A DNA stretch of 64,000 nt, taken from contig NZ_JACZZA010000011.1 of the NCBI RefSeq assembly GCF_014863405.1, positions 124,001 to 188,000 of the forward strand, read 5' to 3'. The notes under the pieces are model-generated. The model did no database searches. It was given only the letters and a program-made list of their open reading frames with translations, and was not told the DNA's origin. Origin of the DNA: Dyella acidiphila (GTDB lineage Bacteria > Pseudomonadota > Gammaproteobacteria > Xanthomonadales > Rhodanobacteraceae). The position numbers and the translations under genes are program-made. Positions 36,438-63,015 of the stretch are shown piece by piece; position 1 is the first letter of the stretch; the number at the start of each line of letters is the position of its first letter.

Positions 36438-36492
36438 ATGGCAGAGAGGTGACCAGAAGGCAACGCCGCATGCCAGTTGCCAGGAGTAGCTC

Positions 36493-38904: not shown

Positions 38905-38924
38905 AAACCACCCATCTTGGCGCA

Positions 38925-38954: not shown

Positions 38955-38960
38955 CACATC

Positions 38961-40194: not shown

Positions 40195-40938
40195 ATGCCC
40201 TCCTCCTCTTTCCGGCACACCGAAGGCAGTGACCCGCCATCCGCGGCGCCGGTGCGCAGACAAGTGACGCTGGCGGCAGAGCCACAGCCGCTGCTTGTGC
40301 ATGTGATCGAATTTCCGCACGACGGGCTGGTGCCCGGCGCATTTGCGCAGGCCGGCATCGCCTGCCCTGAAGCGATCCAGCGCAGCGTGTACAAGCGGCA
40401 GCTCGAATTTTTCTTCGGCCGCCTGGCTGCCCGCGACGCGCTCGCCACGCTGGGGCTGGCGCACGAACACGTTGCGCTGGGCGCCCAGCGGCAGCCGGTC
40501 TGGCCGAGTGACGTGATCGGCAGCATTACGCATACGCACAGCGTGGCGGCAGCGGTGGCGCAGCGGCCCGGCGCCTACCGCGGCATCGGCATCGATGCAG
40601 AACAACTGATCGACGAGCCAACCTGCCAGTCGGTGGCCAGTACGGTGGCCGGGCCGCAGGAGCTGGATTACCTGCGTGCGCTGCCGGAGCTTTCATGGCA
40701 AGCCGCACTGACCATCGTGTTTTCGGCCAAGGAAAGTTTCTACAAGGCGGTCTATGCGAACGTCGGCCGCATTTTCGATTTCTCCGCCGTGCACGTAGTG
40801 AAACTAGACAGTGCGCGGCAACGGCTCACCCTGATGCTGGCGGAAGACTTGAACGATCGATTCCGCCGCGGCCAGGCGTACGAAGCCGGCTTCACTTTTA
40901 TCCGGCCCGATACCGTGCTCACCCATGTGGTGTGGTGA
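40195..40938 (+). CDS. 4'-phosphopantetheinyl transferase (EntD/Sfp type)
   Basis: 247 residues. The motifs are GSITHTHS (about residue 104, P1-like), GIGIDAEQ (about 126-133, metal-binding Asp) and FSAKESFYKAVY (about 182-193, with the W/F-SxKExxxK signature). The enzyme moves phosphopantetheine from CoA to a Ser of carrier proteins. Five carrier domains of the adjacent NRPS/PKS genes need this. It is the first gene of a three-gene operon with the free adenylation enzyme and the racemase, which supports a dedicated role. No strong ribosome site is visible before ATG 40195. Confidence 0.9.
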   Translation: MPSSSFRHTEGSDPPSAAPVRRQVTLAAEPQPLLVHVIEFPHDGLVPGAFAQAGIACPEAIQRSVYKRQLEFFFGRLAARDALATLGLAHEHVALGAQRQPVWPSDVIGSITHTHSVAAAVAQRPGAYRGIGIDAEQLIDEPTCQSVASTVAGPQELDYLRALPELSWQAALTIVFSAKESFYKAVYANVGRIFDFSAVHVVKLDSARQRLTLMLAEDLNDRFRRGQAYEAGFTFIRPDTVLTHVVW

Positions 40939-41023
40939 GCACGCGGGACTTGCCCGCAGCCGCACGCTAGGATAGGTGTATCCCGATTTTCAACGAAGCC
41001 TGGTGACGCGAGGAACGTGTTTC

Positions 41024-42652
41024 ATGCCGACGTTGAACGTGTTGTCGCAGTTTTGCGCCATGGCCGGCCGCTTTGCCGACACCCTGGCGATCGAATACGA
41101 CACCTTCGAAGATGATCTGCCCGCCAGGCCCGGCATCACCTATGCCGAACTGGAACAGCGCTCGAATCAGCTGGCCCGCTGCCTGCTGCATGAAGGCGTG
41201 GCGCCCGGCATGCCGGTAGCGATCCTGGCGGAAGACGCCGGCATCGTGGTCACGGCGATGCTGGCTGTGCTGAAAGCCGGCGCCGCCTTTGTGCCGCTCG
41301 ATCCGCGGCTGCCCGCGCCGCGCATGGCTGCGATGCTGGCCCTGGCGCAGCCAGTGCTCGTACTGGCCGAAAGCGAGGCGGTGGCGGCATGGGCGCAACT
41401 CGATCCCAGCGTATCGCCGCGGCCGCCCGTGCTGGCCCTGGATAGCGTGGACGAGCTGCGCAAACACCTGCTGGACTGGCCGCTGCGCAGCGCCAACTGG
41501 CGGCACAAATCCACCGCGGCATGCCAGTTGCCGATGGATGCGGATGCTTTCTGCTACATCTTCTTCACCTCCGGCTCCACCGGTGAGCCCAAGGCGATCG
41601 CGGGCAGGTTCCAGGGCATTGGCCATTTCATTCAGTGGGAAATCGACACTTTTGGCATCACTCCGGGCACGCGCGTCAGCCAGCTGACCACGCCGTCGTT
41701 CGACGCCTTTCTGCGCGATGTTTTCACGCCGCTATGCGCGGGCGGCACGATCTGCGTGCCCAACGACCGCAAGCGGGTGATGGTGCCGGGCGAACTCGCC
41801 GCGTGGCTGGAATTGCGCGGAATCCAGTTGATGCATTGCGTGCCGACGGTGTTTCGGCTGTTGCTCGAAGATCCGGGTCCGGCCGACGCGCTGCCCGACC
41901 TGCGCTGGATTCTGCTGGCCGGCGAAACGGTGACGCCGAACGACGTGATGCGCTGGACCCAGTTGTTCGGCACACGCATTCGACTGGCCAACTTGTATGG
42001 CCCGTCGGAAACGACCATGACCAAGTTCTGCCATCTGATCGACGCCGACGACGGCCTGCGCCGCACGGTGCCGATCGGCCATCCGATCCCCGGCGCCAGC
42101 GCGATGGTGGTGGACGGACACGATCAGCTATGCACACCGGGCACGGTCGGCGAGATCTTGATTCGCACGCCGTATCGCACATTGGGCTATTACCGGCGCC
42201 CCGACCTCACCGCAGCGGCATTTGTACCCAATCCGTTTGCGCTCGACAACGAAGAAGACCTGGTCTATCGCACCGGCGACCTGGGCCGCGAATTGCCGGA
42301 CGGCAGTTTTGAGCTGGCCGGACGCCGGGATAGCCAGGTGAAGATTCGCGGCGTGCGCGTAGAGCCGAGCGAAATCGAAGACCGGCTGCGCTGCATGCCC
42401 GGTGTCGCCGATGCCGCCGTGATCGCCCGCAACGATCGGGACGGCGGCGCTTCGCTGCATGCCTACGTCGTGGCCCACGGCGAACCGCCGGTGGCGGCAT
42501 TGCGTCGCTGGGTGGCGCAGGCGCTGCCGGAAGTGATGATTCCTGCCAGCTTCACGCTGCTGGCCGCACTGCCGCGCACGCTCAGCGGCAAGGTCGACCG
42601 CCAGCTGTTGTCGGCCGCCGCCGCTCCACAACACGCGCCGCTGCCCGGTTGA
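41024..42652 (+). CDS. Stand-alone amino acid adenylation enzyme
   Basis: 542 residues from ATG 41024 (GAGGAA 8 bp upstream). It is a complete NRPS-type A domain: YIFFTSGSTGEPK (A3), LANLYGPSET (A5), YRTGDLGRELPDGSFELAGRRDSQVKIRG (A7-A8, read in parts) and the A10 Lys in LSGKVDR. There is no carrier or condensation domain. The pocket read by eye against GrsA is D-A-R-H-L-A-L-M-T-K. Asp235 indicates an alpha-amino acid, but the code matches none I know. The only carrier lacking its own A domain is in the 543-residue protein at 50924-52555, so loading that one in trans is a good guess. Confidence 0.87.
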   Translation: MPTLNVLSQFCAMAGRFADTLAIEYDTFEDDLPARPGITYAELEQRSNQLARCLLHEGVAPGMPVAILAEDAGIVVTAMLAVLKAGAAFVPLDPRLPAPRMAAMLALAQPVLVLAESEAVAAWAQLDPSVSPRPPVLALDSVDELRKHLLDWPLRSANWRHKSTAACQLPMDADAFCYIFFTSGSTGEPKAIAGRFQGIGHFIQWEIDTFGITPGTRVSQLTTPSFDAFLRDVFTPLCAGGTICVPNDRKRVMVPGELAAWLELRGIQLMHCVPTVFRLLLEDPGPADALPDLRWILLAGETVTPNDVMRWTQLFGTRIRLANLYGPSETTMTKFCHLIDADDGLRRTVPIGHPIPGASAMVVDGHDQLCTPGTVGEILIRTPYRTLGYYRRPDLTAAAFVPNPFALDNEEDLVYRTGDLGRELPDGSFELAGRRDSQVKIRGVRVEPSEIEDRLRCMPGVADAAVIARNDRDGGASLHAYVVAHGEPPVAALRRWVAQALPEVMIPASFTLLAALPRTLSGKVDRQLLSAAAAPQHAPLPG

Positions 42653-42655
42653 CGC

Positions 42656-43591
42656 ATGCGCATTTTTACCGATCACGCCGCCGTGCAGGGCGCCGTCGCC
42701 GAAGCCGAGGCGCGGATGGCTGCCGTCGCTGCCGCGCATGCACGGCGCGGCATACCGTGCACGGACCAGGTATTCGATGACGAGATCTGGCTGCTGGCGC
42801 CGCCGCAAGCAAGCGCGCCAGCGCTGCTGCTGATCGGCGGCATGGGTCCGCAAGCCGGTCTGCGCGCCTTCGCGCAAACCTGCGCACGGTTCGCGCAGAG
42901 CCGACGCATCGTATTGCTGCAAGCGTGTTCGATACCTGATCGCAGCCAGGCGGTACGCGCCGGGCTGGCCGGCGAAATCGCCGGCATGCGCGCACGCCAG
43001 AGCGTGGTGCAGGCGCTGACCGGCGCCGTGCAACACGTGCGCGAATTGGCGCAGACAGCGTCCGCCGACCTGATCGTGCTGTGCAATACCGCCCATCACT
43101 TCCTTGGCCACGTGCCCCTGCCGCCGCGCACCCGGCTGATCGACCTGGTGGATGCGGCCGCTCAGCATTGCCGCGGCATGGCTTCGGCGATTGTGCTGTC
43201 GACCTACGGCACGCGCGTCTCCGGCCTGTATCTGCGCAGCCTGGCGCAACAGCATGTGCACTGCCTGACACCGCCCGCCGAGATGGAGGCGCTGCTGGCG
43301 GATCTGGTTTACCGCGGCATCAAGGCGATGAATCCGGATTACGCCGTGGCGATGCTGCCGGTGCTGCTGCAACAGCTCGCACAATGGGCCCCGCATGCCG
43401 ACGGCCTGATCTGCGGTTGCACCGAAATTCCACTGCTGCTCGGCGCCGCACACGATGTGCACGCACCGTGGCCACTGATCGATCCGCTGAGCTGCGCGCT
43501 GGCCTGCCTTGAAGAGGATGCCGGTGCCACGGCCGCCCATCCCCTCCCGCTGGGAGAGGAGATGGGCCATGCGATGCATTACCGCAGCTGA
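42656..43591 (+). CDS. Aspartate/glutamate racemase family enzyme
   Basis: 311 residues, starting 4 bp after the adenylation gene stop. The racemase pattern is intact: GGMGPQAG near residue 61, catalytic Cys143 in LCNTAHH and Cys255 in CGCTEIPLLL. Family members interconvert L- and D-Asp or Glu through two cysteines, without cofactor. Placed in the NRPS operon, it could supply D-Glu or D-Asp as a building block. The PKS-NRPS carries a Glu-like pocket and no epimerisation domain of its own. Its 3' end overlaps the convergent PKS-NRPS gene by 13 bp. A hydantoin or maleate relative is possible but less likely. Confidence 0.85.
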   Translation: MRIFTDHAAVQGAVAEAEARMAAVAAAHARRGIPCTDQVFDDEIWLLAPPQASAPALLLIGGMGPQAGLRAFAQTCARFAQSRRIVLLQACSIPDRSQAVRAGLAGEIAGMRARQSVVQALTGAVQHVRELAQTASADLIVLCNTAHHFLGHVPLPPRTRLIDLVDAAAQHCRGMASAIVLSTYGTRVSGLYLRSLAQQHVHCLTPPAEMEALLADLVYRGIKAMNPDYAVAMLPVLLQQLAQWAPHADGLICGCTEIPLLLGAAHDVHAPWPLIDPLSCALACLEEDAGATAAHPLPLGEEMGHAMHYRS

Positions 43592-46500
43592 CGCGCCGCC
43601 AGCAGGTCGTCCACCAGCCCGGCCAGCGACTCGATCGTGCTGTGCTCGAAGATGTAGCGCACTTCCAATTCGATCTGCAGGCGCCGGATGATTTCGTTGA
43701 CCACGCGAATGGCCAGCAGCGACTGCCCGCCCAGCTCGAAGAAATCGGCCCGCACGCTAAGGCTTTGCTTGCCCATCAGCTCGCTCCAGATTGCGGCCAG
43801 CGTATGCTCGGTATCGGTGCGCGGCGCCACATGCTCGTCCGAGGGACGCTCGATCGCCTGCCGGCATAGCGCATCGCGATCCAGCTTGCCATTGGCAGTC
43901 AAGGGCAGCGCCGGCAGCACCGCGTAAGACTGCGGCACCATGTAGTTGGGCAACACCGCGCCCAGGCTTCGCTTCAGCTCGGCGACCAGGCTCTTTTCAT
44001 CCACGCCCTGCCCTTCGATCACCAGATAGGCCACCAGGTATTTGGCGCTGTCTTCGCCCAGCGCCAGGACCGCCGCGTGACGCACATCGGGATGCTGCAT
44101 CAGCTGGCTCTCGATCGCGCCCAGTTCCACCCGGAAGCCGCGCAGCTTCACCTGCAGATCGTTGCGTCCCATATAGATCAGGCGCCCGTCGTCCAGCCAG
44201 CGGCCGAAGTCGCCGGTGCGATACAGCCGCGCTTGCGCCGACGGCGGCTGTTGCGGGTCGGGAATAAAGCTGCGCTGGGTCAGTTCGGGCTGGTCGAGAT
44301 AACCACGCGCCAGGCCGGCGCCGCCGATATGGATTTCGCCGATGGCGCCGGCCGGCACGGGCTGGCCGTATTCGTCGAGCAGATGCACCTGCACGTTGGC
44401 GATCGGCACGCCGATATGCGGCACGTCATCGTCGGGGCGGATCAGACCGATGGTCGCGTCCACCGTGCACTCGGTGGGACCATACATATTGAAGAAGCGC
44501 GTATGCGGTGAGGCGCGCAACACCCGCCACATCGCCTCATTGATCGGCTCGCCGCCGAGCAGCACGGTGGACGGCCGCCAGCCCTGCGCATCGAGCAGAC
44601 CGGCGGTCAGCAACACCGCGATCTGCGAGGGCGTGCTGTCAAACCATTCGATCCGGTGCTGGCGAATAAAGCGCAGCAGCTTGTCGCCATCCGCACGGAT
44701 CGCCTGCGGAATGAGGTACACGCAATGGCCCGACAGCAGTTGCAGCACACCCTTGAGCGACATGTCGAAAGCGATCGATGCATTCAGGCCGATCTTCGTA
44801 TGCGGTGCGCAGCCCGCGTGCGTGGTGGCCGCCATCACACGCCAGAAATTCACCGCCGCACGGTGCTCCACCGCCACACCCTTGGGCTGGCCGGTGGAGC
44901 CGGAGGTGTAGATCACATAGGCAAGATGGTCTGCACGCACCGATGTCTGCGGCAGCGTATCGGCATAGTCGGCCAGTTCGCCGGGGTGGTCGAGCGGCAG
45001 CCGTGCCGCGGGCGATTCATCCAATGCCTGCTGGTCGGCGCTGCGCGTCAACACAACGTCGGCGCCGCTGGCGGCGACTACCTGGGCAATGCGCGCACGC
45101 GGATAGCTTGGCTCCATCGGCACGTAGGCCGCGCCGGCTTTCAGGATTCCGAGCAGGCCGGCCAGCATCGCGATGGAGCGTTCCACGCATAGGCCGAAGC
45201 GCCGATCGGGTCCGGCGCCGTAACGCTGGATCAGGCAATGCGCAATGCGGTTGGACCAGCGATCCAGTTCGCCATAACTGATCTGCTCGCCCTCGCACAC
45301 TACCGCCGTGGCATCCGGATCCGCCGCGGCGCATTGCGCAAACAGCTGGTGCAGGCAGGCTTCGGCCGGCGCGCCCGGCGACGATGCCAGCGTGGCTTCC
45401 GGTTCGGGCAACGTACCGAAATCGTGTCCGGGCATGGCCAGGTCGCGCAGTTGCCGCAAGCGTGGCAAGTTCTGCAGGACCAGCTGCGGATCGACGCCGA
45501 AGTCGACCAGGCAAGCCAGTTCGTTTACGCCGGCCTGGCGAATCGATTCGACCAGCGGCAGGCAACGTTCCGCCGTGCCGAGCAAGGCATTGGAACGGTA
45601 GTAGCGCTGGAAGGCGAATTCGGCCAGCGCCTCGATATCGGCACGATGCGCGCTGGTATCCAGGTCGCCCAGGCCCAGCGTTCTGGCCAAGGCCTGCGGC
45701 GTGCCCAGCGAATCGACCAGGTAACGTTTGAACGGCTCTTTCACATGCGCAAACACCGTCGCTTCGTCGTCGGTGATAAAGGCATGCACCAGCAAGGTCA
45801 CCGTGCCTTCGCCGCGATGCCCCGCTTCGGCACGCGCCTGCCGGTAGATGGCAATCTTGCGGCCCAGTTCGTCCAGCGACTGGCCCATCAGAATCGTCAG
45901 CAGGTTGTCGCCCGAACGTCCCGCATGGCGAAAGGCTTCCTCGCTGCCCACCGTGGTGACCCATACCGGCAATTCGTTCTGCAAAGGCCGTGGGCGGATC
46001 CGGATCGGATGCGCTTCGCCGTCGCCGCCGGGCAGCGTCACGTCATCGCCGCGCCACAGCGCCTTGACCGTCTGGATGCCCTGCATCAGCACCTCGCGGC
46101 GCCCTTCGTAATGCGCCGGTGCCAGCGAGAAATCGCGCGGTGAATAGCCGGCAGCGAAACCGATACCTACGCGGCCGCCGGAAATATTGTCGATCACCGA
46201 CCAGTCCTCGGCCACGCGCACCGGATGATGCAGCGGCAGCACGCAACTGCCGGCACGAATGCCGATCTGCCTGGTGACCGACGCCACTGCCGCCGCGGTA
46301 ATCGCCGGATTGGGATACAGGCCGCCGAAGGTGTCGAAATGCCGCTCCGGCATCCATACCGCGTCGAAGCCGTGGCGATCGGCGAAGCGTGCGCCTTCGA
46401 GCAGCAGCTCGTACTTGCCGGCGGTCTTTTCGCCATCGTCGTTGGCGAAATAGAACAAGCTGAAATTGAACGCCTGCGCATCCTGGCTGGACTGTTTGCG

Positions 46501-49500
46501 TCGGCCGGATTCGGCCTCCGGCTCGGCCAGCAGCTTGAGGCTGCGCACCGGCAGGTAAGGTGTTTTGGCGATACTGCGCAGCAGGGCTTCGAACGCGGCG
46601 GCCATGCGGTGAATGGTGGTGGCGTCGAACAGATCCGTGGCGTACTCCCACATCAGGGACAGCTCGCCATCCTCGGCGGCGCTGAAATACAGCGTCAGGT
46701 CGTATTTGCTTACCGATGCCTGCAGCTCGGACTGCACCACATTGTTCCATTCGGTGCGCTCGCCCATCATGCCGATCACCTGGTGATCCACGCTCTGGTC
46801 GAGATAAATCAGCTTGATCTGGGTAATCGGCTCGTAGCTGGTGCTGCGCGCCGGCTTGAGCTCGTCCACCAGCACCTCGAACGGCACGTAGGCATTCGAA
46901 TAGGCTTCCAGCAGGTTCTTTTTGGTCTGCTGCAGAAAGTCGGCGAAGCTCGGATTGCCCGACAGATCCGAGCGCAGGTTCAACACGTTGACGAAGAAGC
47001 CGATCAATCCTTCCAGTTCGCGGTGCAGGCGGTTGGCCACCGAAAAACCGATCACGATATCGTTCTCGCCGCTGTAGCGCGCCAGGAATACCGAGAGCGC
47101 CGCCTGCATGGTCATGAACAAGGTGGTGTCGTGCTGCTGGCCCAGCCGGTTCAGCCCGGCCAGCGTGCCCGGCGCCGCCTTGGTGAAATATTGCATGCCG
47201 CGATAGCTCTGATATTTCGGGCGCGGCCGATCCAGCGGCAGATTGTGTACCTGTGGAATGCCGGCCAGCTTCTTGCGCCAGTACGGAATCTGCTGCTGCA
47301 CGGCCGGACCCTTGAGCCAGTCGCTCTGCCACAGTGCGTAATCGATGTACTGCACCGGCAACGGCGGCAGCGGATCGGGTTCGCCGCGGCTGAATGCTTC
47401 GTACAACAGCCCGAGTTCGTTCATCAGGATCGTATTGGACCAGTTGTCCGAGCAGATATGGTGCTGGGTCACCATCAGCAGGTAGGTATCCTCGCTGTAG
47501 CGCGCCAGGCGCGAGCGCAGCATCAGGTCCTTGCGCAGGTCGATCGGCACCTGCAGCACGCGCTGCCATAGCTCCTGTGCCTGTTGGCGCCGCTCTATGG
47601 GATCGGCGATGTGGCTGAGATCGTCGACCTCCAGCTGGAACTCGAATTGTTCGAGCACACGTTGCATCGGCACACCATCCACTTCCGCATACACGGTGCG
47701 CAGGATCGAGTGGCGCTCGATCACGCCGCGGATGGCGCGCTCCATCGCCGCCACGTTCAGGTTCCGGATCAATTGATAGAAGCCGGTGTTGTAAGCCGAA
47801 TGCTCCAGCTCCAGCTGCGAAATAATCCATAGCCGCTGCTGCGAGGACGATAGCGGTGCGCTGCCGCCATGCCCGAGCAGGCGGATCGGCAGGATCGACA
47901 ATTCCTCGCCGCCATCCACCTTGCGCGTGATCTCTTCCGCCAGCTCGGCAATCGTGCGCATATTGAAAATGGTGTCGAGCGAGATTTCCGCATCGAACGC
48001 TTCGCGGATCTCGTTGATCACGCGGATCGACAGCAGCGAATCGACGCCGAGCGAGAACAGGTCCTCGTGCAGGTCGATCTGCTCCACGCCCAGATAATGC
48101 TTCCAGATCTCGCGCAGCCTGGCTTGTACCGGCGTCAGGCTCTCATCCACCCCCTGTGCAGTTGCGGGTGCCGTCGACCCAGCGCACGATGCCTGCCCGC
48201 GCGGCGTACCCTCGAACGGATAAGTGGGCAACGGTATGCGCCGCCGCAGCTCGGTGGCGTAGTAGTGCCGCCAATCGAACGCGACGCCGTGCACAAACAA
48301 CTGGCACAGGCCTTCCAGCAGGCGTACATCGTCGGCGCCCGGCACGCGCGCCTTGGCCGGCGGCACCAGGCTGATGCAGGGCGCGCCGGCTGCGTCTTCG
48401 CGCCGTGCGGCAAACCCGGCCAGCGCATTGCCCGGCCCCACTTCCACCAGCAGCGGCGCCGCCTCGGCGGCAAGCGTGGCGATGCCCTGCGCAAAGCGCA
48501 CAGGCGCGCGCAGGTGGCGTACCCAGTAATCCGGCGAGGTCGCTTCCTGCGGATCGATCCAGTTGCCGCTGACATTGGAGATAAACGGCGTATGCGGTGC
48601 GGACAGCGTTGCCCGCTGTACCACTTCGCGGAAACGCCCCAGCACCGCATCCATATGGCTGGAGTGAAAGGCATGCGAGGTCGGCAGGCGCACGCTTTCC
48701 ACCTGCTGGGCCGCCAGACGGTCGCGCAGGCGTTCGATCGCATCGATATCGCCCGCCACCACCACTCGCTCCGGTGCATTCACCGCCGCGATCGACGTGC
48801 CATCGGCCAGCAGACTCTGCACGCGCACCTCGCTCAACGGCACCGCCAGCATCGCGCCGCGCGCCAGCGACTGCACCAGGCGTCCGCGCGCCACCACAAT
48901 GGCGATCGCGTCTTCCAGCTCGAACACCCCGGCCAGACAGGCCGCCACGTACTCGCCGATGCTGTGCCCGATATAGGCCGAAGGACGACAGCCCCAATGC
49001 ATCAGGCTGCGCGCCAGCGCGTATTCGAAGCAGAACAGCAGCGGCTGCGCGAGCTCGGTGGCGTCCAGCGCAGCCGGTGCGCCAGCGTCCTGCGGATACA
49101 GCGCTGCCTTCAGGTCCAGCGGCGAATGACGCCGCGCCAGCGCGAAGCAATGGTCGAGGGTTTCGCGGAAGATCGCGTCGCGCTCGTACAGCTCGCGGCC
49201 CATGTCGCGATATTGCGCGCCCTGGCCCGGGAACATGAAACACAGCGCATGGGTGGCGCCATCGAACCGGCCTTCCGCCACCAGACCGGTGCGCGTATCC
49301 GCAGCGCCCAGCTCGGCGGTACTGCCGACCACGAAGGCCTTGCGATAAGGCAGGTCCTTGCGCCCCACTTGCAGCGTGTAGCAGATATCGGCGATGGACT
49401 GTTGCGGATGCTGCCGCGCGTACGCAATTAGCGCCGCTTCGCGCGCCTGCAGCGCTGCCGGCGTATTGGCCGACAACATCACCATCTGGTGCGCACGCGC

Positions 49501-50835: not shown

Positions 50836-50923
50836 GGCGTTGGCTATCCGTGATGGTGGTAGTGGGTCCAGGCGGCGCGAAGCAATGCCGCGCGTGAAAG
50901 CGAAAGATCGATCTGTGTCAGGT

Positions 50924-52555
50924 TCAGTTCTGCAGGCGCTGCCGTGCACGCAGGATGCGGTTCTTCGAATCCGCGGTTTCGCTGCGTGCCGGTGCTGCCC
51001 GTGCGGCGCCGGCAAGATGGCCGGCCAATTGCTGAATAGTCGGGTGACTGAAAATATCCGCGATCGAGATTTGCGCCTGCAGGGTGTTGCGAATGGAGGC
51101 GACCAGCGAAATCGTGCGCAGCGAATCCCCGCCGATATCGAAATAGTTGTCGGTGACGCCGATCTGCGCCAGCTCCAGATGCAGGTTGTTCGCCCAGATC
51201 CGCGCCAGTGCGCGTTCGTTCGGCGTGGATGGCGGCGCGGATACGCGCGTCATGTGTACCGGCGCCGCCGGCTGCGGAAGGCGCGCCGCCGGATCGGCGG
51301 CGGATTGATCCAGCATGGCGATCACCGCGGCAGGATGCCTGGCGATACCGGCCAGCAGCTGCTCGAACTTCACGCTCAGCGCACCGATGTCCGCGGCATC
51401 GAACAGCGCGGTCGCAAAGGTCCATTGCAGCGACAGGCCGTCGCCGCCATCGCCTATGCGCAATTCCAGCGGGCTGGCGGCATAGGCGCAGATCGGCTCC
51501 ATCACGTCGACTTCAAGCCCGGCCCAATCCATCGACGCCTGCTCGGCGTCGCACATCAGGCATTGCGCCTGCGGCGCCGGCATGGCGGTATCCGGATAGG
51601 CAAGCTGCCACGCAGCGTGCAGCGCATCCCCGGACACCTGCTGATGGCGATAAGCCTCGCGCAAGCTGTCGTGGCTGCCATGCAGTACTTCGGCAAACGA
51701 CATATCTTGGTGCAGGCGGTAGCGCAGCGGAAGCAGCCGGGCAAAGCGGCCGATCAGCGGCTCGGACTCCAGCGACAGGCGTCCCGACACCGGCACACCG
51801 ATCAGCACATCGGCACGCTTGTCGTGTCGATACAGCAGCACCGCGAACGCGGCATGCAGCAAGCTAAACAAACTGGTGCGATAACTGCGCGCGATGGCGG
51901 CCAGCCGGTTGCGCAAGTCGGCATCGATATGCGATCGGGCCATCGCCGCCGGCAAATATTCCGCATGAGTGGCCCATTGCAGTGAGCCGGCGCCAGGCAC
52001 CGAGCATTGTGCGAGCCAGTAGGCGATGGCGTCCGCATCGGCATCCATCGCTTCGGCGCAATCCGCATATTGCATCGACAGCGGCGGCAACGGCTCGGCG
52101 TCGCCCTGCCGGCCGGCCGTGTACAACAGGTGAAACTCATGCTGGACCAGGCATAGCGACCACTCGTCCGCCACGCTTGCATCGAGCACAAACAAGGCGA
52201 CCGATTCGCCGGCCGCTGTCGTTTGTTCGTCGAGCCGCAGCAACACTACGCGCAGCAAGGCATCGCACGCTTCGAACGGTCGCCAGGTTTCTTCGCGCAC
52301 CGCCGCTTCCAGCCATACGGAAGAATCGCTGCACAACGGCATCGATCGCACGCGAATCGATGCGCATGCCCGTCCATCGCCCAAAATCCGATGGCGCGAA
52401 ACGACGGTTTCGTAACTGCGCTGCAATACTTCCATATCCACCTCGCCGCGCAAGCGCAGCGCAAGGTATGGATGCGGCTGGCGGCAGCCGGGTGCGGTGC
52501 CCGACGGCACACCGTCGCGCACGCTGCATGTCAGCGTATCGGCCTCGCTCATCAT
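50924..52555 (-). CDS. C-domain-like/PCP protein with degenerate condensation site
   Basis: 543 residues from ATG 52555 (second Met at 52552); GGAGAGGG lies 7 bp upstream. Residues 1-430 follow a condensation-domain fold (YLALRLRGEVDMEVLQRSY, PPLSMQYADCAEAM, GVPVSGRLSLES). The active-site HHxxxDG is DASVADEW at 125-132: both His are lost, with Ala126 in place of the catalytic one. The C-terminal PCP is sound (NYFDIGGDSL, Ser478). There is no A domain. It lies 88 bp before the PKS-NRPS on the same strand. I infer a loading protein whose carrier is charged in trans and whose C-like part is structural or a docking scaffold. Confidence 0.85.
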   Translation of the reverse strand: MMSEADTLTCSVRDGVPSGTAPGCRQPHPYLALRLRGEVDMEVLQRSYETVVSRHRILGDGRACASIRVRSMPLCSDSSVWLEAAVREETWRPFEACDALLRVVLLRLDEQTTAAGESVALFVLDASVADEWSLCLVQHEFHLLYTAGRQGDAEPLPPLSMQYADCAEAMDADADAIAYWLAQCSVPGAGSLQWATHAEYLPAAMARSHIDADLRNRLAAIARSYRTSLFSLLHAAFAVLLYRHDKRADVLIGVPVSGRLSLESEPLIGRFARLLPLRYRLHQDMSFAEVLHGSHDSLREAYRHQQVSGDALHAAWQLAYPDTAMPAPQAQCLMCDAEQASMDWAGLEVDVMEPICAYAASPLELRIGDGGDGLSLQWTFATALFDAADIGALSVKFEQLLAGIARHPAAVIAMLDQSAADPAARLPQPAAPVHMTRVSAPPSTPNERALARIWANNLHLELAQIGVTDNYFDIGGDSLRTISLVASIRNTLQAQISIADIFSHPTIQQLAGHLAGAARAAPARSETADSKNRILRARQRLQN

Positions 52556-53213
52556 CAGGCGCCCTCTCCATCCCCACGTCCGATCCGTCCGCGCGGGTAC
52601 ATTCGCGCAGCCATGCTCAAAGCGAAATAAAGGAAGACCCACGCTTTTGCGCCGGCAAAAGCAAGGAAACAGAAGCGCGTGAAACCGTGCTACGCGTCGC
52701 GGTAGCAGTGGAACCAGGCCGGCGCGGGCGGAAGACTAAGCTACGCGCAATGCGAGTGCAATTGATGCAAATCACATTGAGCGAAGCGGTGATTTGAAGC
52801 ACCGCGTTCTTCATACCGTCTTCACGCGACCCTATGCCAGACTGAAAAAGCTTTACGTTCTCAAGGCAAGGGGCCGGTCGATCGCATGTGAGTTGTGCAG
52901 CCATGCACAGGCCGGGAGAGCGCACGCAACAAGGGAAAGTGTGTGTGCGGCCGCCGCGATTCCGGCAGTGTGTAAAACGCCGGACACACGCAGCGCTGCG
53001 GTGACAAGAAACTGAAACCATCCGAATCCGTATGGATTCGGATTGCTACGCCCGCCTGGAATTCCGTGTCGCAAGGATGAGCCGCTCGCGAATGAAGCAC
53101 GTCTTTTACGCGCCTGTTTCCCGCCATAACCGCCGACAAGACCGGTGGCGGCCCGGCTTTGCCTGCGCTTCGCGACGCGGCAATTTTCTCGCCTCCTCTG
53201 CACGGAGCTGCGC
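52556..53213. promoter_or_regulatory. Divergent promoter region of the two megasynthase operons, with a perfect palindrome
   Basis: 658 bp between opposite NRPS genes, with a lower GC share than the genes. At 53020-53043 ATCCGAATCC and GGATTCGGAT form perfect 10-bp arms around GTAT, about 170 bp before the NRPS start: an operator candidate, or a leader hairpin if transcription begins upstream. No regulator gene lies in the cluster. Open frames crossing the region have no ribosome site. Confidence 0.5.
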
Positions 53214-56200
53214 ATGACGCCTTTGTCATATCCGCAACAGCGACTCTGGTTCCAACATCTGTTCGAGGGGCCGAGCACCACCTACAACATCGCGACCATC
53301 TGGCGCATCGAAGGGCCGCTGCAGGTGGCCGCCTTGCGCGCCGCGATCGGCGATCTGATCGCGCGCCACGAAAGCCTGCGCACCGTGTTTTCCGGTACCG
53401 ACGGCACCGGCCAGCAACAGGTGGTGGAACTTGCCGGACTGGAAACGCCGCTGCAGATCGTCGAACTGGATGAAGCTGCGCTTTCGGCGGCATTGGATCG
53501 TGCCAGCAATTATTGTTTCGATCTAAAACGCGAAATTCCCTTTCGCTGCCATCTGTTCAAGCTGCACGACCAGCTGCATGTGTTTATCGCGGTCATGCAT
53601 CACATCGCCACCGACGGCTGGTCGCATGGCCCGATGGTGCGCGATCTGGCCGAAGCCTATGACGCGCGCTGCGCAGGCCAGGCGCCCGCACGCGCGCCAC
53701 TGGAAGTGCAATACGGCGAATACGCGCAATGGCAGCGCAAGCAGCTGGGTGACCCGTCCGATCCGGACAGCATCATCGCGCGCCAGACTGCCTACTGGAA
53801 AAAAGCTCTGGCCGGCCTGCCCGACCAGTTGACCCTGCCCTACGATCGGCCGCGGCCCGGCAAGGCCAGCTATCGCGGCGACACGCTGATGTGCGACCTG
53901 GGCACCGGCCTGTACCCGCGTCTGCAAGAGGTGGCGCGCAAGCATCGCGTCACTCCGTTCATGCTGTTCCAGGCCGCCGTCGCCCTGCTGCTCGGCAAGC
54001 TCGGTGCAGGCAACGATATTCCGCTCGGCTCCTCGTTCGCCGGCCGCACGGACGCCGTGCTGAACGACATGATCGGCTTTTTCGTGAACATGCTGGTGCT
54101 GCGCACGGATCTGTCGGGCAATCCCAGTTTCTCCAAGCTGCTGGAACGGGTGCGGCGGATCAACCTGGATGCCTACTCGAATCACGACCTGCCTTTCGAT
54201 TATCTGGTCGACGCGATCAATCCCACCCGCACGCCGGCCTACCATCCCTTGTTCCAGGTGACGGTAGCCGTGGTCGACGGCGGCGAAATACCGCTGCCGC
54301 TAGGCGGGCTGAAAACACGCAGCGTGTGGCCGGACATTCGCGTCGCCAAATTCGATCTCACTTTCAATTTCATCCAGCAGCGGCCGGACCAGGGCGTAGC
54401 CCAGAGCATGCTGCTGGAAGTGGAATTCGCCACTGATCTGTTCGGACGCGACACCATCGCGCTGCTTACCCAGCGCCTTGCACGGCTGCTGCAGCTGGTA
54501 GCCGACGATCCGGACCGTCCGATCGACCGCATCGACCTGCTCGGCGAGGATGAGCGGCGGCAGATCCTGGTGGATTGGAACGCCACCGCGCGAAGCATGC
54601 CGCACGCCACGCTGCACCAGCTGTTTTCGCAGCAGGCGGCCCGCACGCCGGACGCCGTCGCTCTGCAGGATGATCAACGCCAGCTCAGCTATGCCCAACT
54701 GGAGCAGCGCGCCAATCAACTGGCGCATCGACTGCAGGCATTGGGCGCCGGTGCCGGGCAACTGATCGGCCTGTGCATGGAATCGTCGTTCGAACGCATC
54801 GTTGCGCTGCTCGCCGTACTGAAGGCGGGCGCCGCCTATCTGCCGCTGGATGCCGATTATCCGCCGGTGCGCCTGTCGCATATGCTGGCCGATGCCGATG
54901 CGCCGCTGGTCCTTGCCAGCGCCGCGCTGGCGCCGCGGCTGCCGGCCGGCGAATGCCGCATTGCGGTGTTCGAACAGGAGGCTGCGCTGGCCGCGCAGTC
55001 GCCCATGCATGCACCCGACTGCGCGGCGCATGCGGAGCAGCTGGCCTATGTGATGTACACCTCCGGCTCCACCGGCCAGCCCAAAGGTATTGCCGTTACG
55101 CATCGCAACGTGGTGGACCTGGCGCTGGACCAGCGCCTGACCGATGCCGCGCAGCAGCGCGTGCTGATGCATTCGCCGCAGGTGTTCGACGCCTCCACCT
55201 ATGAAACCTGGATGCCCTTGCTGAGCGGCCGCACCATCGTGCTGGCGCCGCCCGGCAAGACCGATGTACAGGTACTGGCCGACACGATCGAACGCCATCG
55301 CGTCACCACCGCATTCATCACTACCGCCCTGCTGCGCATCCTGCTGGAGCAGGCGCCGGCATGCCTGGCGCAGCTGCGCACGCTGCACACCGGCGGCGAA
55401 GCGGCGGCGCCTTCAGTCTTCGAGCAGTTGCTCGAACGCTGGCCGCAACTGGAAGTGGTGAACGTCTACGGCCCGACCGAAACCACCACTTTCGCCACCG
55501 GCTGCTGGCTGCGTGCGCCCTGCCGCATCGAGGCCAGCGTGCCGATCGGGCGGCCGCTCGACAATACCCAGGCCTACGTACTGGATCACGCACTGCAACC
55601 GGTACCGCCCGGCGTGCCGGGCGAGTTGTATCTGGGCGGCAACGGGCTGGCGCGCGGCTATCTGCGACGCGCTGCATTGACGGCAGAGCGTTTTATCGCC
55701 AATCCGCATGGCGCTCCAGGCAGCCGTCTCTATCGCACCGGCGATGTGGTACGCTGGCTGCCCGATGGCAAGCTCGATTACGTCGGCCGCGGCGACCAGC
55801 AGATCAAGCTGCGCGGCTTCCGCATCGAACTGGGCGAGATCGATGCCGCGGTGTCGCGCCTGCCAGGTGTTGCGCACAGTTATGTGATGGTGCGCGAGGA
55901 CGAAGCCGCCCAGCGGCACCTGGTCGCTTATGTGGTAGCCGCAAGCGGCCACAGCCTGGACGAAGCAAGCTTGCGCAGCGCGCTGTCCACCCAATTGCCC
56001 GACTACATGCTGCCGGCGGCGATCGTGCTGCTGGACGCACTGCCGCTGACCGTTAACGGCAAGGTGGACCGCAAAGCCCTGCCCGCACCGGCTTTCGCCG
56101 CGGCGGCAAGCCGCGCGCCGCGTACGCCGCAGGAAGAAATCCTGGCTGGCCTGTTTGCCGAAGTCCTGGGCAGGCCGCGCGTGGGCATCGACGACAATTT

Positions 56201-59200
56201 CTTCGACCTCGGCGGACAGTCGCTGCTGGCGATGCGCCTGGTCAGCAGCATACGTTCGGTGTTCGGCATCGAAATGCCGATCAGCGAATTGTTCGAATTG
56301 CCGACGGTGGCGGCGCTGGTGCCACTGCTGGAATCGCGCGATGCCGCGCGCACCACCTTGCAGCCGCAGCAGCGCCCGCCGGCAATCCCGTTGTCGTTTG
56401 CGCAACAGCGGCTGTGGTTTCTGCACAAGCTAGAAGGCCACAGCGCCACCTATAACGTGCCACTGCCCATCCGCCTGGAGGGCACGCTCGATGCGCAGGC
56501 CCTGCGCCAGGCGGTGAACGACGTGGTGGCACGCCATGAAAGCCTGCGCACGCGCTTTGTCGAGCACGAAGGCCAGGCGCGGCAGCTGATCGTGCCGGCC
56601 GATGAAGCCCTGGTACCGTTCGAGCTGTCGACACTTACCGAAGCCGAGCTGCCCGACAGCCTGCGCGAAGCCTGCATGCACCGCTTCGACCTGGCACAGG
56701 AACTGCCGGTGCGCTGCAAGTTGTTCGTACTCGGCGACCAGCTGCATGTGCTGTTGCTGCTGCTGCACCATATCGCCAGCGACGGCGGCTCGATGGCCCC
56801 GCTGGCCAACGATCTAGGCGCGGCCTACACCGCCCGCAGCCGCGGCGAGCTTCCCGCGCCGGCACCGCTGCCGGTGCAATATGTCGATTACACGCTGTGG
56901 CAACGCCAATGGCTGGGGACGGCGGACGATCCGTCCAGCGCGATCGCCACGCAGATCGCCTTCTGGAAAAAGAGCCTCGCCGGCCTGCCCGAACAACTCG
57001 AACTGCCTACCGACCGGCCGCGTCCGGCGCAGGCCAGCTATCGCGGCGATACGCTGCGCTTCGGCATCGAGCCGGAAGTGCAACAGCAATTGCATGCGCT
57101 GGCGCACAAGGCGCGCTGCAGCCTGTTCATGCTGTTGCACGCCGCCGTCGCCAGCTTGCTGTACAAACTCGGCGCCGGCAGCGATATCCCGCTGGGCACA
57201 CCACTGGCCGGCCGCAATGACAACGCCCTGCACGATCTGGTCGGCTGCTTCGTCAATACGCTGGTGCTGCGCACCGACCTGGCCGGCAATCCGAGCTTTA
57301 TGGATTTGCTGGCGCGCGTGCGCAGTGCCGACCTGGCCGCTTATTCGCATCAGGACATGCCGTTCGATCAGCTGGTCGACGTGCTCAAGCCGGCGCGTTC
57401 CACCACCCACCATCCGCTGTTCCAGGTGATGGTGGTATTGCAGAACAATCCCGAGGAACGCCTGCTGCTGCCCGGCATTACGGTCAGCGAATACCCGCGC
57501 CAGTTCGACATCGCCAAGTTCGACCTCACCTTCCATTTCGCCGAATTGCACAAGGCCGATGGCGATAGCGGCGAACTGATCGGCTGCATCGAATTCGCCA
57601 CCGATCTGTTCGATCGGCAAACCGTGCAGGGTTTTGCCGATCGGCTGTTGCGCTTGCTGGGCCAGGTAGCCGCCGACCCGGGCCGCCGGCTCGACCAGCT
57701 GGAGCTGCTCGGCGAACAGGAACGTCAACAGATCCTGCACGATTGGAACCGTACGGCGTGGCCGGTCACCGCCGAAACCATGCCGCGTCTGTTCGAACGG
57801 CAGGCGGCCGCCACGCCCGCAGCGGATGCGGTACTGCTCGGTCGCGGCGAGCTGAGTTTCGATGCGCTGAACCGGCGCGCCAACCGCATCGCGCATGCGC
57901 TGATCGAGGCCGGCATCGGCAGCGAACAGTTCGTGGCGATCGGCCTGCCGCGTGGCGCCGACATGCTGGCCACCATGCTGGGCGTGTGGAAAGCCGGCGC
58001 CGCCTATCTGCCGGTGGACCTGGAATATCCGCCCGAACGCATTGCCCTGATGCTGGCCGATGCACAACCGGCCTGTGTGATCACCGATACCGCCAATCTC
58101 GGCACTTTCGCGCACAGCACGCTGGTATGGACATTGGATGCCGCCGATGGCGTAGCGCGGTTGTCGCGCCAGGCCGAGAGCAATCCGCGCGACGAGCAAC
58201 GCGTGCGGCCATTGCGCGCCACGCATCCGGCCTACGTGATCTATACCTCCGGCTCCACCGGCCGTCCCAAGGGCGTGGTGATCGAGCATGCCAGCCTGGC
58301 CAATTACTTTGCCTGGACACGCCAGGCCTACTTCAACGACGGTGGCAACGGCGCGCCGCTTACGCTTTCGCCGACCTTCGACGGCAGCGTCACCTTGCTG
58401 TTCGGTCCGCTGCTCGCCGGCCAGCCGGTGGCGATGCTGGCCTCGGGTTCGATCTTCACCGGCAATCCCGATTACACCTACGACCTGATCAAGCTCACGC
58501 CCACGCAGTTGAAGCCGCTCAATCAGGCCCTGGCCGAACAGCGCGGCGCCATGCCGGCGCGCACACTGGTGCTCGGCGGCGAAGCCGCCAACGCAAGCGA
58601 CCTGGCGTTCTGGCAGGAACGCTACCCGGATGTGCGCATCGTCAACGAATTCGGCCCCACCGAAGCCACCGTCGGCTGTATTACCCATCGCGTTGCCGAA
58701 GATCTGCGTGGTGCCGGCAGCGTGCCGATCGGACGGCCACTGTGGAATACCCAGGCCTACGTACTCGATGCCGCCTTGCAGCCGGTTGCGCCGGGCGTGG
58801 CCGGCGAGCTGTATCTGGCCGGCGCATGCCTGGCGCGCGGTTATCTGCGGCGCCCGGCGCCCAGCGCGGAACGCTTCGTAGCCAACCCGCATGGCGCACC
58901 GGGCAGTCGCATGTATCGCACCGGCGACCGTGCACGCTGGCTGCGCGACGGTCGCCTGGATTATCTGGGCCGCAACGATACGCAGGTAAAAATCCGCGGC
59001 CACCGCATCGAGCCCGGCGAAATCGAGGCGGCGCTGTTGCGTCAGCCGGGCGTGGCCCAGGCGGCAGTCATCGCACGTGCGGATCTGCGCGGTCAGAAGC
59101 AATTGCTCGGCTATGTGGTTGCGCGCGCGGACGCCAACCTGGATGTACAAGCGTTGCGCCGCGCAGTAGCCGGCGAACTGCCCGCCTTCATGCTGCCGGC

Positions 59201-61688
59201 ATCGATCATGCTGCTGCAGCAACTGCCGCTGACTCCCAACGGCAAGCTCGATCACACCGCGCTGCCCTCGCCCAGCCAGGGACTGGTCGGCCAGCGCGTA
59301 CCGCGTACGCCGCAGGAACTGATCGTGGCGGCGCTGTTCCGGCAGGTGCTCGGCCTGGAACAGATCGATATCGATGCGAGCTTCTTCGACCTGGGCGGCG
59401 ACAGCATCCGCTCGATCGAGCTGATCAACCACATGCGCAAGGCCGGCCTGCGCATCACGCCGCGCGATATTTTCGGCCATCCCTCGGTCGCTGCGCTGGC
59501 CGCGGTCGCCCTGCCGCTGCAGGCAGCGGCAGCCCGAGCGGCGGTGGCGACGCGCTTTGTGCCAACGCCGATCATGCAATGGTTCTTCGAGCGCGGCGCT
59601 ACCAACCGCTATCTGCAATCCACGGTATTGCGCACCCCGGCCGGCGCATCGGCGCCGCATCTGCTGCAGGCCTTGCAGGCAGTGCTCGATCATCACGACA
59701 CGCTGCGCATGCGGCTGGGCGACGATCATGCGCTGGAATTGCTGCCGCCCGGTGTGATCCAGGCCGAGCGTTGTTGGACCCAGGTCGCCCAGCCGGAACA
59801 TTGGATGGATGCCGCCGAAGCCGCCGCCGATGCACTCGATGCCGCCAACGGCAAACTGCTGCATGCGGTGTGGCAGGACGGCGGCGCCGAACAGGGGCGC
59901 TTGCTGCTGGTGATCCACCACCTGGCCGTAGATGCGGTGTCGTGGCGCATCCTGGTGCCCGATCTGCAGGCCGCCTACGAGGCGGCGACCCAAAACAGCG
60001 CGCCGGCACTGATGCCGGTGGGCACTTCGTTTGCGCAATGGTCAGCGGCGCTGCTGGCAGCCGGCGCATCGGCGCGCCTGCACGAGGAGTTGCCGCTGTG
60101 GCTGTCGATCCAGCGCACGCCCGATCCGGTGCTCGGACAACGCCCGCTGACGGCATCGCTGGATTGTTTCGGCAATGAACAGTCGCTGCAGCTGACGGTA
60201 CCGGCATCCCTCGCCGCACCGTTGCTGGAGCGCATCGCACCACAATGGCGAGTAACACCGCACGAGCTGTTGCTGGCCGCGCTGGCACTGGCCCTGAGCC
60301 GCTGGCGTGCCGCATACGGCTACGGCGACGGCACGGCTGTGCGCATCGACGTGGAAGGCCATGGCCGCGAAGAGATCGGCGATCAAGTCGATCTCGCCCG
60401 CACGCTCGGCTGGTTCACCAGTCTGTATCCGGTGCAACTCGATGCTGGCGTATCCGGCGCAGCTGAAGCCACGCGGCAGCAGCTGCCGCTTTCGCGCCTT
60501 GTCCAGCAGCTTGCCGCGCAGTGCCGGCGCCTGCCCAACAACGGTATCGGCTACGGCATCCTGCGCTATCTCAGCGACGAGGGCCGTGCCAACCTCGCTG
60601 CGTACGCACCTTCGCAAGTGGCGTTCAATTATCTCGGCCGCTACCGCGCCGGCGATGGCGACTGGCAGACGGCAGCGCTGGAGCGCACCCTGCAAGTGGA
60701 CAAGGCACGCGCGCTGTCGCATGCCATTTCGCTCAACGTAGCCGCGATCGACGACAGCACCGGCACGCAACTGCAGGCAAGCTGGTCATGGGCGGCGGAT
60801 GTCTTTGCCCCCGTCGACATGCAAGCGCTGGCACAGGCCTGGCTGGACGAACTGACTCAGTTCGCGCAGGCGCAAGCGGAACCGAGCGCCTCCGCCGACA
60901 TCGAGCTGACGGCGCCGCAACCGCGGATCTACGACGACCACGCCGCGGACCGGCTCGCCGACGACTTGTTCCCGGTGCTGCTGCCGATTCAGCGCGGCAA
61001 TGGCCTGGCGCCCTTGTTCTGCGTACCGCCGTTGACCGGCGTAGGCATTTCGTACGGACGCCTGCGCGAAGTGCTGCCCGCCGACCAGCCGATCTATGCC
61101 TTCAACGCACCCAGCCTGAGCCGCAGCGATCGTCCACCGCAAACACTGGATGCACTGGTGGAGGAATACCTGCGGGAAATGGGCGAACTCTATCCGGATG
61201 GACCCTACAACCTGCTGGGCTGGTCGTTCGGCGGCTATGTTGCGCATCGTATGACGCAGTTGCTGGAAGAACGCGGCAAGACCGTTGCCAACCTGATCCT
61301 GCTGGATGCCACGCCGATCGGCGCGGAACATTTCTACGGCACCGGCCCGCGCACCGACGCGGAAATCGCCAATTACATCGATCATCTGTTCGCCGGCGTT
61401 TCGCACCACGTGCCCAAGTCGCGGCTGTTCACTACCTGCCGCTTGAACAGCGCGTTCCTCAGCGCGTTCCAGCGTCAGCCGGTGCGCACCAGCATGACCG
61501 TGGTGGAAGCGGAGCGCGATGCGGTGCCGCTGGAGTCGCCGCTGCATATGGCGAACTGGTGGGGCGTGGACGGCACGCCGCACCATCGCTATCTGAAAGT
61601 GCCGCACGGTCATCACGAACTGATGGAACACAGTGCGATCGAGCGTATCGGCCGCGCCATTGCAGGTAGCCTGTATGCCGCCGATTGA
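53214..61688 (+). CDS. NRPS: C-A-PCP-C-A-PCP-E-TE
   Basis: 2824 residues from ATG 53214 (GGAG 6 bp upstream). Module 1: C (HHIATDGWS, His129/130), A (about 455-950), PCP (Ser1003). Module 2: C (HHIASDGGS, His1185/1186, Asp1190), A (about 1510-2010), PCP (Ser2064). Then an epimerisation domain (about 2100-2560, [10 protein letters not shown] at 2235, GHGRE, FNYLGRY) and a type I thioesterase (about 2590-2824, Ser2671 in GWSFGG, His in PHGHHELM). Pockets by eye: module 1 D-A-Y-F-H-G-V-T-F-K, like Val/Ile codes; module 2 D-G-T-K-V-G-E-V-G-K, close to Asn codes (DLTKLGEVGK). The thioesterase follows E directly, so it would release a peptide ending in a D-residue. Starting with C, it receives a chain from another protein. 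Confidence 0.93.
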
Positions 61689-63015
61689 TGCCACCCCGCC
61701 GCCGGCCGAGCCGGCTTCCGCCATACGTGCATTCCGCCGCTTTCTATGCGGCAACGCCATGGTGCTGGTGGCGATGATGGTCGGCCAGGTCGCCGTGCCC
61801 TGGTGGATCACGCTGAAGAACGGGCGGCACGACCTCGCCTTGTACGCCACGCTGTGCGCGGTGGCGGTATGCCTGACCATGCCGCTGATGTCGATGCTGG
61901 GCGACCGGCATAGCAAGCGCCTGCTGATCCGCATCGGCCTGTGCGTCTATCTGCTTGGCGCCATCGGCACGGCCTGCCTGGCCAGCTTCGGCTATTACGA
62001 CATCCGCCTGCTGCTCGCCGTGGAAATCGTGGCGCTGTCGGGCTTGTCGATGGTGATTCCCCTGATGAGCGTAATGGCATCGGACCTGCTGCCGCAGGCG
62101 GCGCTGCCGCAGGCGATGCAGCAGCAGAAATTCTGGCAATCGGCCGGCCAGCTCGGCGGCCCGATGCTCGGCGGCCTGGCGCTGAGCTTCGCCGGCGTGA
62201 GCTTCGCGCTGTGGCTGCAGATTGTGCTGATCCTGGCGGTGCTGGCAGTGACCGAGAGTTTGCCGGCCAGTCCGCCAGCGACGACTCACCCGCGCGGCGG
62301 CTGGTGGCAGGAACTGAGTGCCGGCGTGCGCGCCAAATGGCGCATCGGACTGGAGCGCAACTGGACCATCATCACCTTCGTGGTCGGCCTGGCATTGATA
62401 CCGTGCATCGGCATGCTGCTGCCGTTGAAAGTGCATGCCATGGGATTGTCCGGACAGTGGCTCGGCATCTGCGAAGCATCGGTCTCGCTGGGCATGCTGC
62501 TCGGCGCCGCCGTCGGCAGCAATGCGCGCATCGTGGAACGGCTCGGGCGTTTCCGCTTGCGCGTGGCGGCGATTACCTTGCTCGGTCCCGCGCTGGTGCT
62601 GGTCGGCCAGACCCATGCGCCGCTGACCATGGCGGCATCGCTGCTGCTGGTCGGCTTCATGAATTCGATCGTGGTGATGATGGGCTATTCGCGCCGCATC
62701 CTTGCCTCACCCAAGCGTTTCCGCACGCGCATGATGGCGGTGAACGTGGTGGTGACCCAGCTGTCGGCCATTGTGGGCCCGGCGCTGGCCGGGCTATGGC
62801 TGATGCATTGGCCGATCTCTTTCGTATACCTCATTTTCGGCATCACGCTCTTGCTCGGCAGCGCGGGCTACTGGGTCACCCCCAACTTCCGCACCTTTCT
62901 CGAACTCGACGACAAGGATGTGGAAGGCTGGTACAGCACGCACTATCCGCACGCATTCGATGCCAAGGAAATATCCGCGATCGCGCCCGAAACGACGCCG
63001 GCAAGCGATGCGTGA
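61675..63015 (+). CDS. MFS exporter of the NRPS/PKS product
   Basis: 446 residues from ATG 61675, overlapping the NRPS stop by 14 bp, so it is translated together with the synthetase. Twelve hydrophobic segments are visible, beginning [18 protein letters not shown], with a basic loop GDRHSKRLL (MFS motif A remnant) between TM2 and TM3. It resembles the EntS-like MFS group that exports siderophores and peptides. The C-terminal tail ([17 protein letters not shown]) is hydrophilic and cytoplasmic. Co-translation with the assembly line makes efflux of the product, giving release or self-protection, the most likely role. Confidence 0.88.

Follow-up and report, generated by a model that had tools for sequence, protein, structure and literature searches.

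Myxoprincomide is one natural product whose assembly line carries a built-in oxygenase domain. Another is puwainaphycin, whose cyanobacterial protein PuwE (PDB 6ket) is described in the relevant part of PMC4219810 as a polyketide synthase (PKS)/aminotransferase/oxygenase/nonribosomal peptide synthetase (NRPS) protein; there a luciferase-like FMN monooxygenase (LLM) domain is attached to a PKS module feeding an NRPS module, and aminotransferase and oxygenase are assigned to a 3-amino-2-hydroxy acyl unit. The keramamide and calyxamide clusters of Entotheonella also combine, by the description in the portion of PMC12858407 devoted to them, an oxygenase domain in a hybrid line with an unusual C1 extension (the calyxamide model is drawn with an Ox domain). 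Here we describe a gene cluster of Dyella acidiphila at positions 40195-63015 of a 64,000-nucleotide window (the whole stretch analysed), which corresponds to 124001-188000 of contig NZ_JACZZA010000011.1 (hereafter C2) in a genome of 5.07 Mb. We think it rather probable that this is a complete orphan hybrid NRPS/PKS cluster, and its product is most likely a small, short peptide in which a built-in oxygenase has altered the one unit of polyketide origin. The cluster is new as a combination: the machinery is of a familiar type, but it is unusual in where the oxygenase sits and in which parts are brought together. From what PMC12858407 describes, the remainder of the keramamide and calyxamide assembly lines is unlike that of the window.

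Every gene that a first-pass annotation had named in 40195-63015, i.e. a phosphopantetheinyl transferase (PPTase), a free adenylation (A) enzyme, a racemase, a condensation-like/peptidyl carrier protein (C-PCP), a PKS-NRPS and a terminal NRPS, proved to be an open frame with a significant Pfam or NCBIfam domain match, and domain scans returned both megasynthases in the order it had given (Table 1). Ketosynthase (KS), acyltransferase (AT), carrier, C, A and thioesterase (TE) domains with active-site motifs occur in neighbouring genes, one C domain, that of the C-PCP protein, being degenerate. The several exporter genes it had listed come down to one gene of the major facilitator superfamily (MFS). 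The PPTase, free A and racemase genes show operon-like spacing on the plus strand, the racemase and PKS-NRPS genes are convergent with 3' ends overlapping by 13 bases, and the terminal NRPS gene (plus strand) is divergent from the C-PCP gene (minus strand).

The PKS-NRPS protein reads KS-AT-ACP-C-LLM-A-PCP, where ACP is an acyl carrier protein domain. Its LLM domain is complete, belongs to the MupA/Atu3671 family (TIGR04020) and is closest in the PDB to PuwE (6ket, 2.4e-100), to which it is homologous over 340 residues. Unlike PuwE, the window protein lacks an aminotransferase, and its LLM is placed after a C domain. A puwainaphycin-type 3-amino-2-hydroxy acyl module was rejected, as the 2478-aa protein gave no aminotransferase match, while the same kind of scan found Aminotran_3 ahead of the LLM in a relative (L058). 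That relative, at L058:2553-10970 in a genome of the same family (G029), encodes a KS-AT-PCP-aminotransferase-LLM protein with a PuwE-like layout. An Atu3671-type NRPS was also ruled out: a complete A domain follows the LLM, and the protein has none ahead of it. Atu3671-type NRPSs, which share their name with the NCBIfam model, are linked to siderophores.

To place this domain we surveyed 44 LLMs, with domain maps drawn from hidden Markov models built from the window's own domains. In a phylum sample, 19 of 398 genomes matched at 1e-60 and all 18 others were taken in; six of 197 genomes matched in a family sample; 80 plasmid records matched, from which 16 were picked among the matches listed, for variety and not at random; and four loci with PKS-NRPS relatives were included. 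No LLM was found in 15 other genomes of the same genus. The LLM interrupts an A domain in 23 cases, lies between C and an intact A in six, shares a frame with a PKS or directly adjoins a PKS gene in nine, and stands alone in six, one of them with an AT gene in its locus. The six C-LLM-A rows come from the window, Luteibacter sp. dw_328 (L027 and L071) and three Pseudoalteromonas luteoviolacea loci (L028-L030). All six have KS-AT-ACP ahead of C in the same frame. The NRPSs with an LLM inside A (e.g. L052-L057, L059-L067) share the TIGR04020 family with the window, but none of the 23 has a KS in its own frame. On the LLM tree the six rows form one clade with 100/100 support and a long stem, and on a C-domain tree without L029 the C domains of the window, dw_328, L028 and L030 also form a 100/100 clade, marked by the motif HHICSDN. 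Meanwhile, the A domain behind the LLM has a Glu-like code in the window and in dw_328, as against DVWSNAVVYK in all three P. luteoviolacea loci. Because this code differs between hosts, the conserved LLM step appears not to be tied to the following amino acid; since the oxygenase is conserved, the next amino acid changes and a fused PKS module precedes each time, the LLM probably acts on the malonyl-derived unit.

The first-pass annotation had the single malonyl unit left as a beta-keto group. Its first half holds: the AT motif HAFH is one that we take to be of malonyl type, and the spacer of 92 residues between AT and ACP has no room for a ketoreductase (KR), none being found before the ACP. 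However, the beta-keto fate is not supported, because a complete LLM sits in the same protein and its clade was found in the survey behind PKS modules alone. As the window protein, unlike PuwE, has no aminotransferase, the LLM may either hydroxylate the alpha position, leaving an alpha-hydroxy-beta-keto unit, or remove one carbon to yield an alpha-ketoamide. The gene features that we listed for a C1-extension module making an alpha-keto-beta-amino acid, namely a KS-AT-ACP without KR and an oxygenase in one protein, are present.

In place of HHxxxDG the C domain of the C-PCP protein has DASVADE and so lacks the catalytic His pair. This C domain is probably dead and unlikely to condense, and because of this the carrier behind it is read as a probable loading site, which strengthens the earlier proposal of a starter on the stand-alone PCP. 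Among 148 genomes, the best other match to the C-PCP protein by E-value has 32% identity. The C domains open with S..QQRLW motifs, presumably of the L-donor type. The Glu-, Val- and Asn-like residues proposed earlier were recovered when codes were read on an alignment of A domains: DMKDLGMVDK in the PKS-NRPS agrees at 7/10 positions with DAQDLGVVDK (Glu/Gln, as tabulated in the code list of PMC12283262), and in the terminal NRPS DAYFHGVTFK agrees at 7/10 with DALFIGGTFK (predicted Val) and DGTKVGEVGK at 9/10 with DATKVGEVGK (predicted Asn), both from the zeamine predictions given in PMC3547906. The D configuration of the Asn fits the presence of an epimerisation (E) domain with its motif, which on the tree groups with the E domain of a paralogous NRPS on contig C24, apart from the other 31 C-type domains. 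Release by a thioesterase likewise agrees with a TE at the NRPS end (Thioesterase, 1.1e-23; GWSFGG).

From these domains we infer the following order of assembly. The racemase would supply or invert a starter amino acid X, probably acidic and perhaps D, which the free A enzyme would activate and load on the PCP that follows the dead C domain. KS-AT-ACP would add one malonyl unit without reduction, and the next C domain would join the malonyl-extended chain to a Glu-like residue. The LLM would then oxidise the malonyl-derived carbon beside the new amide or thioester, to an alpha-hydroxy-beta-keto unit or, with one-carbon loss, to an alpha-ketoamide. Val-like and Asn residues would follow, the Asn being epimerised to D-Asn, before the TE releases the chain and the MFS protein exports the product. 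As to a start by an acyl ligase, as in lipopeptides, the free A enzyme exceeds the cut-off of the amino-acid A model. We rejected a siderophore cluster on two grounds: by Pfam, 40195-63015 contains no gene for a TonB receptor, for iron transport or for a chelator, and the LLM does not interrupt an A domain; the resemblance of the MFS protein to the enterobactin exporter EntS is weak (40.8 bits, cut-off 324).

The free A enzyme is the probable loader of the starter amino acid. The racemase gene begins 3 bases past its stop codon; the racemase sequence has the Cys motifs CNTAH and GCTEI and scores below cut-off with the cysteate racemase and asp_race models. Relatives of the racemase are few: at E <= 1e-20 two of 197 genomes in the family sample matched, own genome included, at 1e-25 one of 312 in the class sample, which is the own genome, and no plasmid matched at 1e-10. 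In a genome of the same family (G053, contig C41), a racemase of 56.5% identity lies about 11 kb from an A domain of 61.8% identity with the same code, DARHLALMTK; there, in contrast to the window, the A domain is a fused part of a 3067-aa NRPS, A domain and racemase have between them a protein that starts like an asparagine synthase (MCGIAGYL), and no LLM was found within the 55 kb examined. At 1e-80 the free A enzyme matched two plasmid records, both with A domains only distantly related to it. In Kitasatospora sp. NBC_00039 the free-A-type and racemase genes are adjacent (code DARHLALMTK, read by hand), and in Streptomyces sp. NBC_01216 they are 2.2 kb apart (DARHASLMTK, also read by hand); both loci carry an asnB gene. 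Thus, with the G053 locus found via the racemase and the two plasmid loci via the A domain, this A type (DARHLALMTK or close) and an Asp/Glu-type racemase share a locus in all four loci examined, window included. We infer that the racemase and free A enzyme share a substrate, an acidic amino acid that is perhaps D-configured, whose carboxylate the Arg in the A code may grip. In the two plasmid loci (L090:12688-19380 and L091:11880-16287) asnB, the racemase and a small A-PCP protein stand together, and in L090 a neighbouring protein has a PP-loop-like part (LLYSGGKDSS) fused to one that resembles a condensation domain. Asparagine synthase matches in the own genome are absent from C2 and C24, and all lie on other contigs.

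Nowhere in the genomes searched (class and family samples and a genome-contig search, which reaches close relatives only) did a locus combine the whole gene set, and the open literature searched yielded no paper on the cluster. To this extent the earlier view that the combination matches no named cluster holds, but the PKS-NRPS protein alone has full-length relatives, with 62% identity in Luteibacter sp. dw_328 and 46-47% in P. luteoviolacea. The contig search found 10 stretches, four of which are the loci with these relatives. They share the full-length KS-AT-ACP-C-LLM-A-PCP protein and the LLM and C clades with the window, and differ in having full C-A-PCP modules before the PKS (stretches of 22.7-30.7 kb), other downstream NRPSs and ABC-type exporters and, in P. 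luteoviolacea, another A code behind the LLM. Within these stretches there is no racemase relative, and the free A enzyme finds ordinary A-domain similarity only (26-39%). Two A domains in dw_328 (L027:1-13300) have Ser-like codes ending in IEK (DVSHLSHIEK and DVWHMSHIEK), and DVGHMSQIEK stands directly before the same PKS in P. luteoviolacea (L028-L030). Maansson et al., in the strain comparison of PMC5069768, list a hybrid NRPS-PKS pathway conserved in all their P. luteoviolacea strains. In the class sample, 39 of 369 genomes, own included, match the first 1872 residues of the PKS-NRPS at 1e-100; with two candidates scored per genome, none among the matches listed, apart from the own genome, reached the LLM.

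The first in-frame ATG codons of the PKS-NRPS, C-PCP and NRPS genes sit inside the frames, at 50835, 52555 and 53214, so the listed starts are probably somewhat too long. The divergent region 52500-53300 contains three terminator-like hairpins, where shuffled sequence gave an expectation of 0.9; the one at 53020-53043 has a stem of 10 pairs. A promoter scan found no sigma-70-like site in this region. On the left, a TonB-dependent receptor (32840-36025) beside a GH92 glycosidase and a fatty acid hydroxylase family gene (38961-39986, minus strand) look unrelated to the cluster, and a PADLOC run on three upstream proteins gave no match.

Table 1. Coordinates of the cluster genes, selected domains and the adjoining gene (window numbering).
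Feature	Position	Strand	Evidence
4'-phosphopantetheinyl transferase	40195..40938	+	Pfam 4PPT_N 9e-21, ACPS 2.1e-15; NCBIfam EntD model 86.9 bits, under cut-off
Stand-alone A enzyme, code DARHLALMTK	40976..42652	+	AMP-binding 9e-69; AA-adenyl-dom TIGR01733 375.5 bits, cut-off 317.4
Asp/Glu/cysteate-type amino acid racemase	42656..43591	+	PF01177 Asp_Glu_race 3.2e-12, 47.1 bits, cut-off 31
PKS-NRPS, KS-AT-ACP-C-LLM-A-PCP, 2478-aa frame	43579..51015	-	domain scans
A domain after LLM, code DMKDLGMVDK (Glu-like)	43885..45339	-	Pfam, code alignment
LLM domain, between C and intact A	45445..46464	-	TIGR04020 459.4 bits, cut-off 244.45, model positions 1-341/341
C domain, HHICSDN, common to dw_328 and P. 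luteoviolacea	46510..47862	-	domain scan, alignment, tree
KS and AT domains (NTACSTS; GHSIGE, HAFH)	48418..50790	-	domain scan, motifs
C-like/PCP protein	50924..52642	-	Pfam domains; DASVADE at HHxxxDG site
Terminal NRPS, C-A(Val-like)-PCP-C-A(Asn-like)-PCP-E-TE	53145..61688	+	domain scans, codes, tree; first ATG 53214
Epimerisation domain	59538..60911	+	E motif; tree
Thioesterase domain, GWSFGG	61011..61685	+	Pfam Thioesterase 1.1e-23; motif
MFS exporter	61633..63015	+	MFS_1 5.1e-24; TIGR00900 76.3 bits and EntS 40.8 bits (cut-off 324), both far under cut-off
Fatty-acid-desaturase-like gene, start	63476..64000	+	PF00487 8.2e-15; frame open to 64486, past window end

The cluster may continue past 63015. 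The desaturase-like gene (window 63476-64000) is followed on C2:188001-194807 (L009) by a class I/II aminotransferase gene and an NRPS gene that runs off the contig, which terminates 6.8 kb past the window end. Contig C24 (C24:1-20000, L013) opens within an NRPS; the protein after that matches the window NRPS at 57.6% identity across aa 21-2846 and follows the same plan, C-A-PCP-C-A(Asn-like)-PCP-E-TE. A sister NRPS line thus likely adjoins the cluster, by way of a putative C2-C24 join. The order on C24 is three Val-like codes followed by Asn-like-E-TE, after which come genes for a TauD-family protein, an amidase and an HlyD-type efflux adaptor. Elsewhere on C2, the codes in NRPS frames of 6423 and 4955 aa at 90494-118703 (L010, L011) are Ser-like and Thr-like; these frames also have TE motifs, and their condensation motifs take the unusual form HHxxxDH. 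A further NRPS line at 20001-40000 (L014) includes a 2451-aa frame in which an A domain and a PCP occur together with an acyltransferase motif (GHSVGE).

Several points weigh against the pathway proposed above, and other readings have to be considered with them. The LLM directly precedes an A domain, and an amino acid is a natural substrate for those surveyed LLMs, 23 of 44, that interrupt A domains; the LLM of the window might therefore oxidise the Glu residue on the PCP, chosen by the A domain that follows, while the malonyl unit stays beta-keto. Moreover, 16 of the 23 A-interrupting loci carry KS or AT in another frame, so that PKS proximity as such is common in the LLM family and the groups are told apart by the same-frame layout alone. 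Support for most deep branches of the LLM tree is weak (22 of 41 inner branches were drawn open). In addition, the six C-LLM-A rows are few and related: because dw_328 is counted twice (L027, L071) and L028 and L029 are nearly identical, their PKS coupling rests on about three independent lineages or fewer. However, these six rows form a clade of their own, each behind a same-frame KS-AT-ACP, and the A code behind the LLM differs between Rhodanobacteraceae and Pseudoalteromonas; we regard oxidation of Glu as unlikely. On the side of the starter, the free A enzyme could serve another carrier, and the racemases of the Streptomyces and Kitasatospora loci are only 29% and 26% identical to that of the window. 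The free A code agrees at 7/10 positions with DPRHLALLAK, a code assigned to 2-aminoadipate in the zeamine cluster by software prediction only: the entry in the code table of PMC12283262 cites the zeamine paper, where the assignment, in the prediction concerned, was made by software (PMC3547906). An identity as a 2-aminoadipate enzyme is accordingly a lead at most.

Gene order is no proof that the divergent NRPS takes over the chain from the PKS-NRPS. The former could be a separate line with its own lipid or amino acyl starter and a product ending in Val-D-Asn, and the C-PCP protein and PKS-NRPS could belong to a different or decayed pathway: the C24 paralogue, alike over its length, sits in another line, relatives have NRPSs with similar modules (15 of 119 genomes match at E <= 1e-250, own included), and the PKS-NRPS has different neighbours in its relatives. 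However, neither the PKS-NRPS nor the C-PCP protein has a TE, and the sole TE in 40195-63015 belongs to the NRPS; minus-strand NRPSs with TE motifs on C2 are about 60 kb away (L011). Meanwhile, the first C domain of the NRPS groups with the in-line elongating C domains of the paralogue, on a tree that held no reference starter C domain. We give this separation a low probability. The cluster and its neighbour (desaturase, aminotransferase and contig-end NRPS, perhaps on into C24) could also form one larger pathway, which would be compatible with the assembly order we propose. The same strand, the distance of less than 0.5 kb from the MFS stop to the desaturase-like gene and the paralogy of the terminal NRPSs speak for it, but there are two separate TE-ended lines, the contig breaks at this point and the C2-C24 join is itself putative, and we find it improbable.

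A bolder reading, which we put forward only tentatively, takes KS-AT-ACP-C-LLM-A-PCP as a transplantable one-carbon homologation unit common to Rhodanobacteraceae and marine Pseudoalteromonas. In it, the LLM would trim the beta-ketoamide by one carbon after condensation to an alpha-ketoamide, and the starter would come from a racemase-coupled A enzyme of the DxRHLAL type, possibly via the side-chain carboxyl, so that the product would be a short electrophilic peptide that probably inhibits proteases. The alpha-ketoamide is a known protease-inhibiting motif, found for example in cyclotheonamide and eurystatin according to the examples given in PMC8154582. The embedded LLM and the association of the A enzyme with a racemase are the parts most worth testing. 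If the LLM placed after a C domain acts on a fresh beta-ketoamide, the protein would be a simple, self-contained system for studying how an alpha-hydroxy-beta-keto unit or an alpha-ketoamide is installed. The A/racemase pairing, which recurs in Proteobacteria and Actinobacteria, points to a building block whose specificity code was found only in the form of a software prediction.

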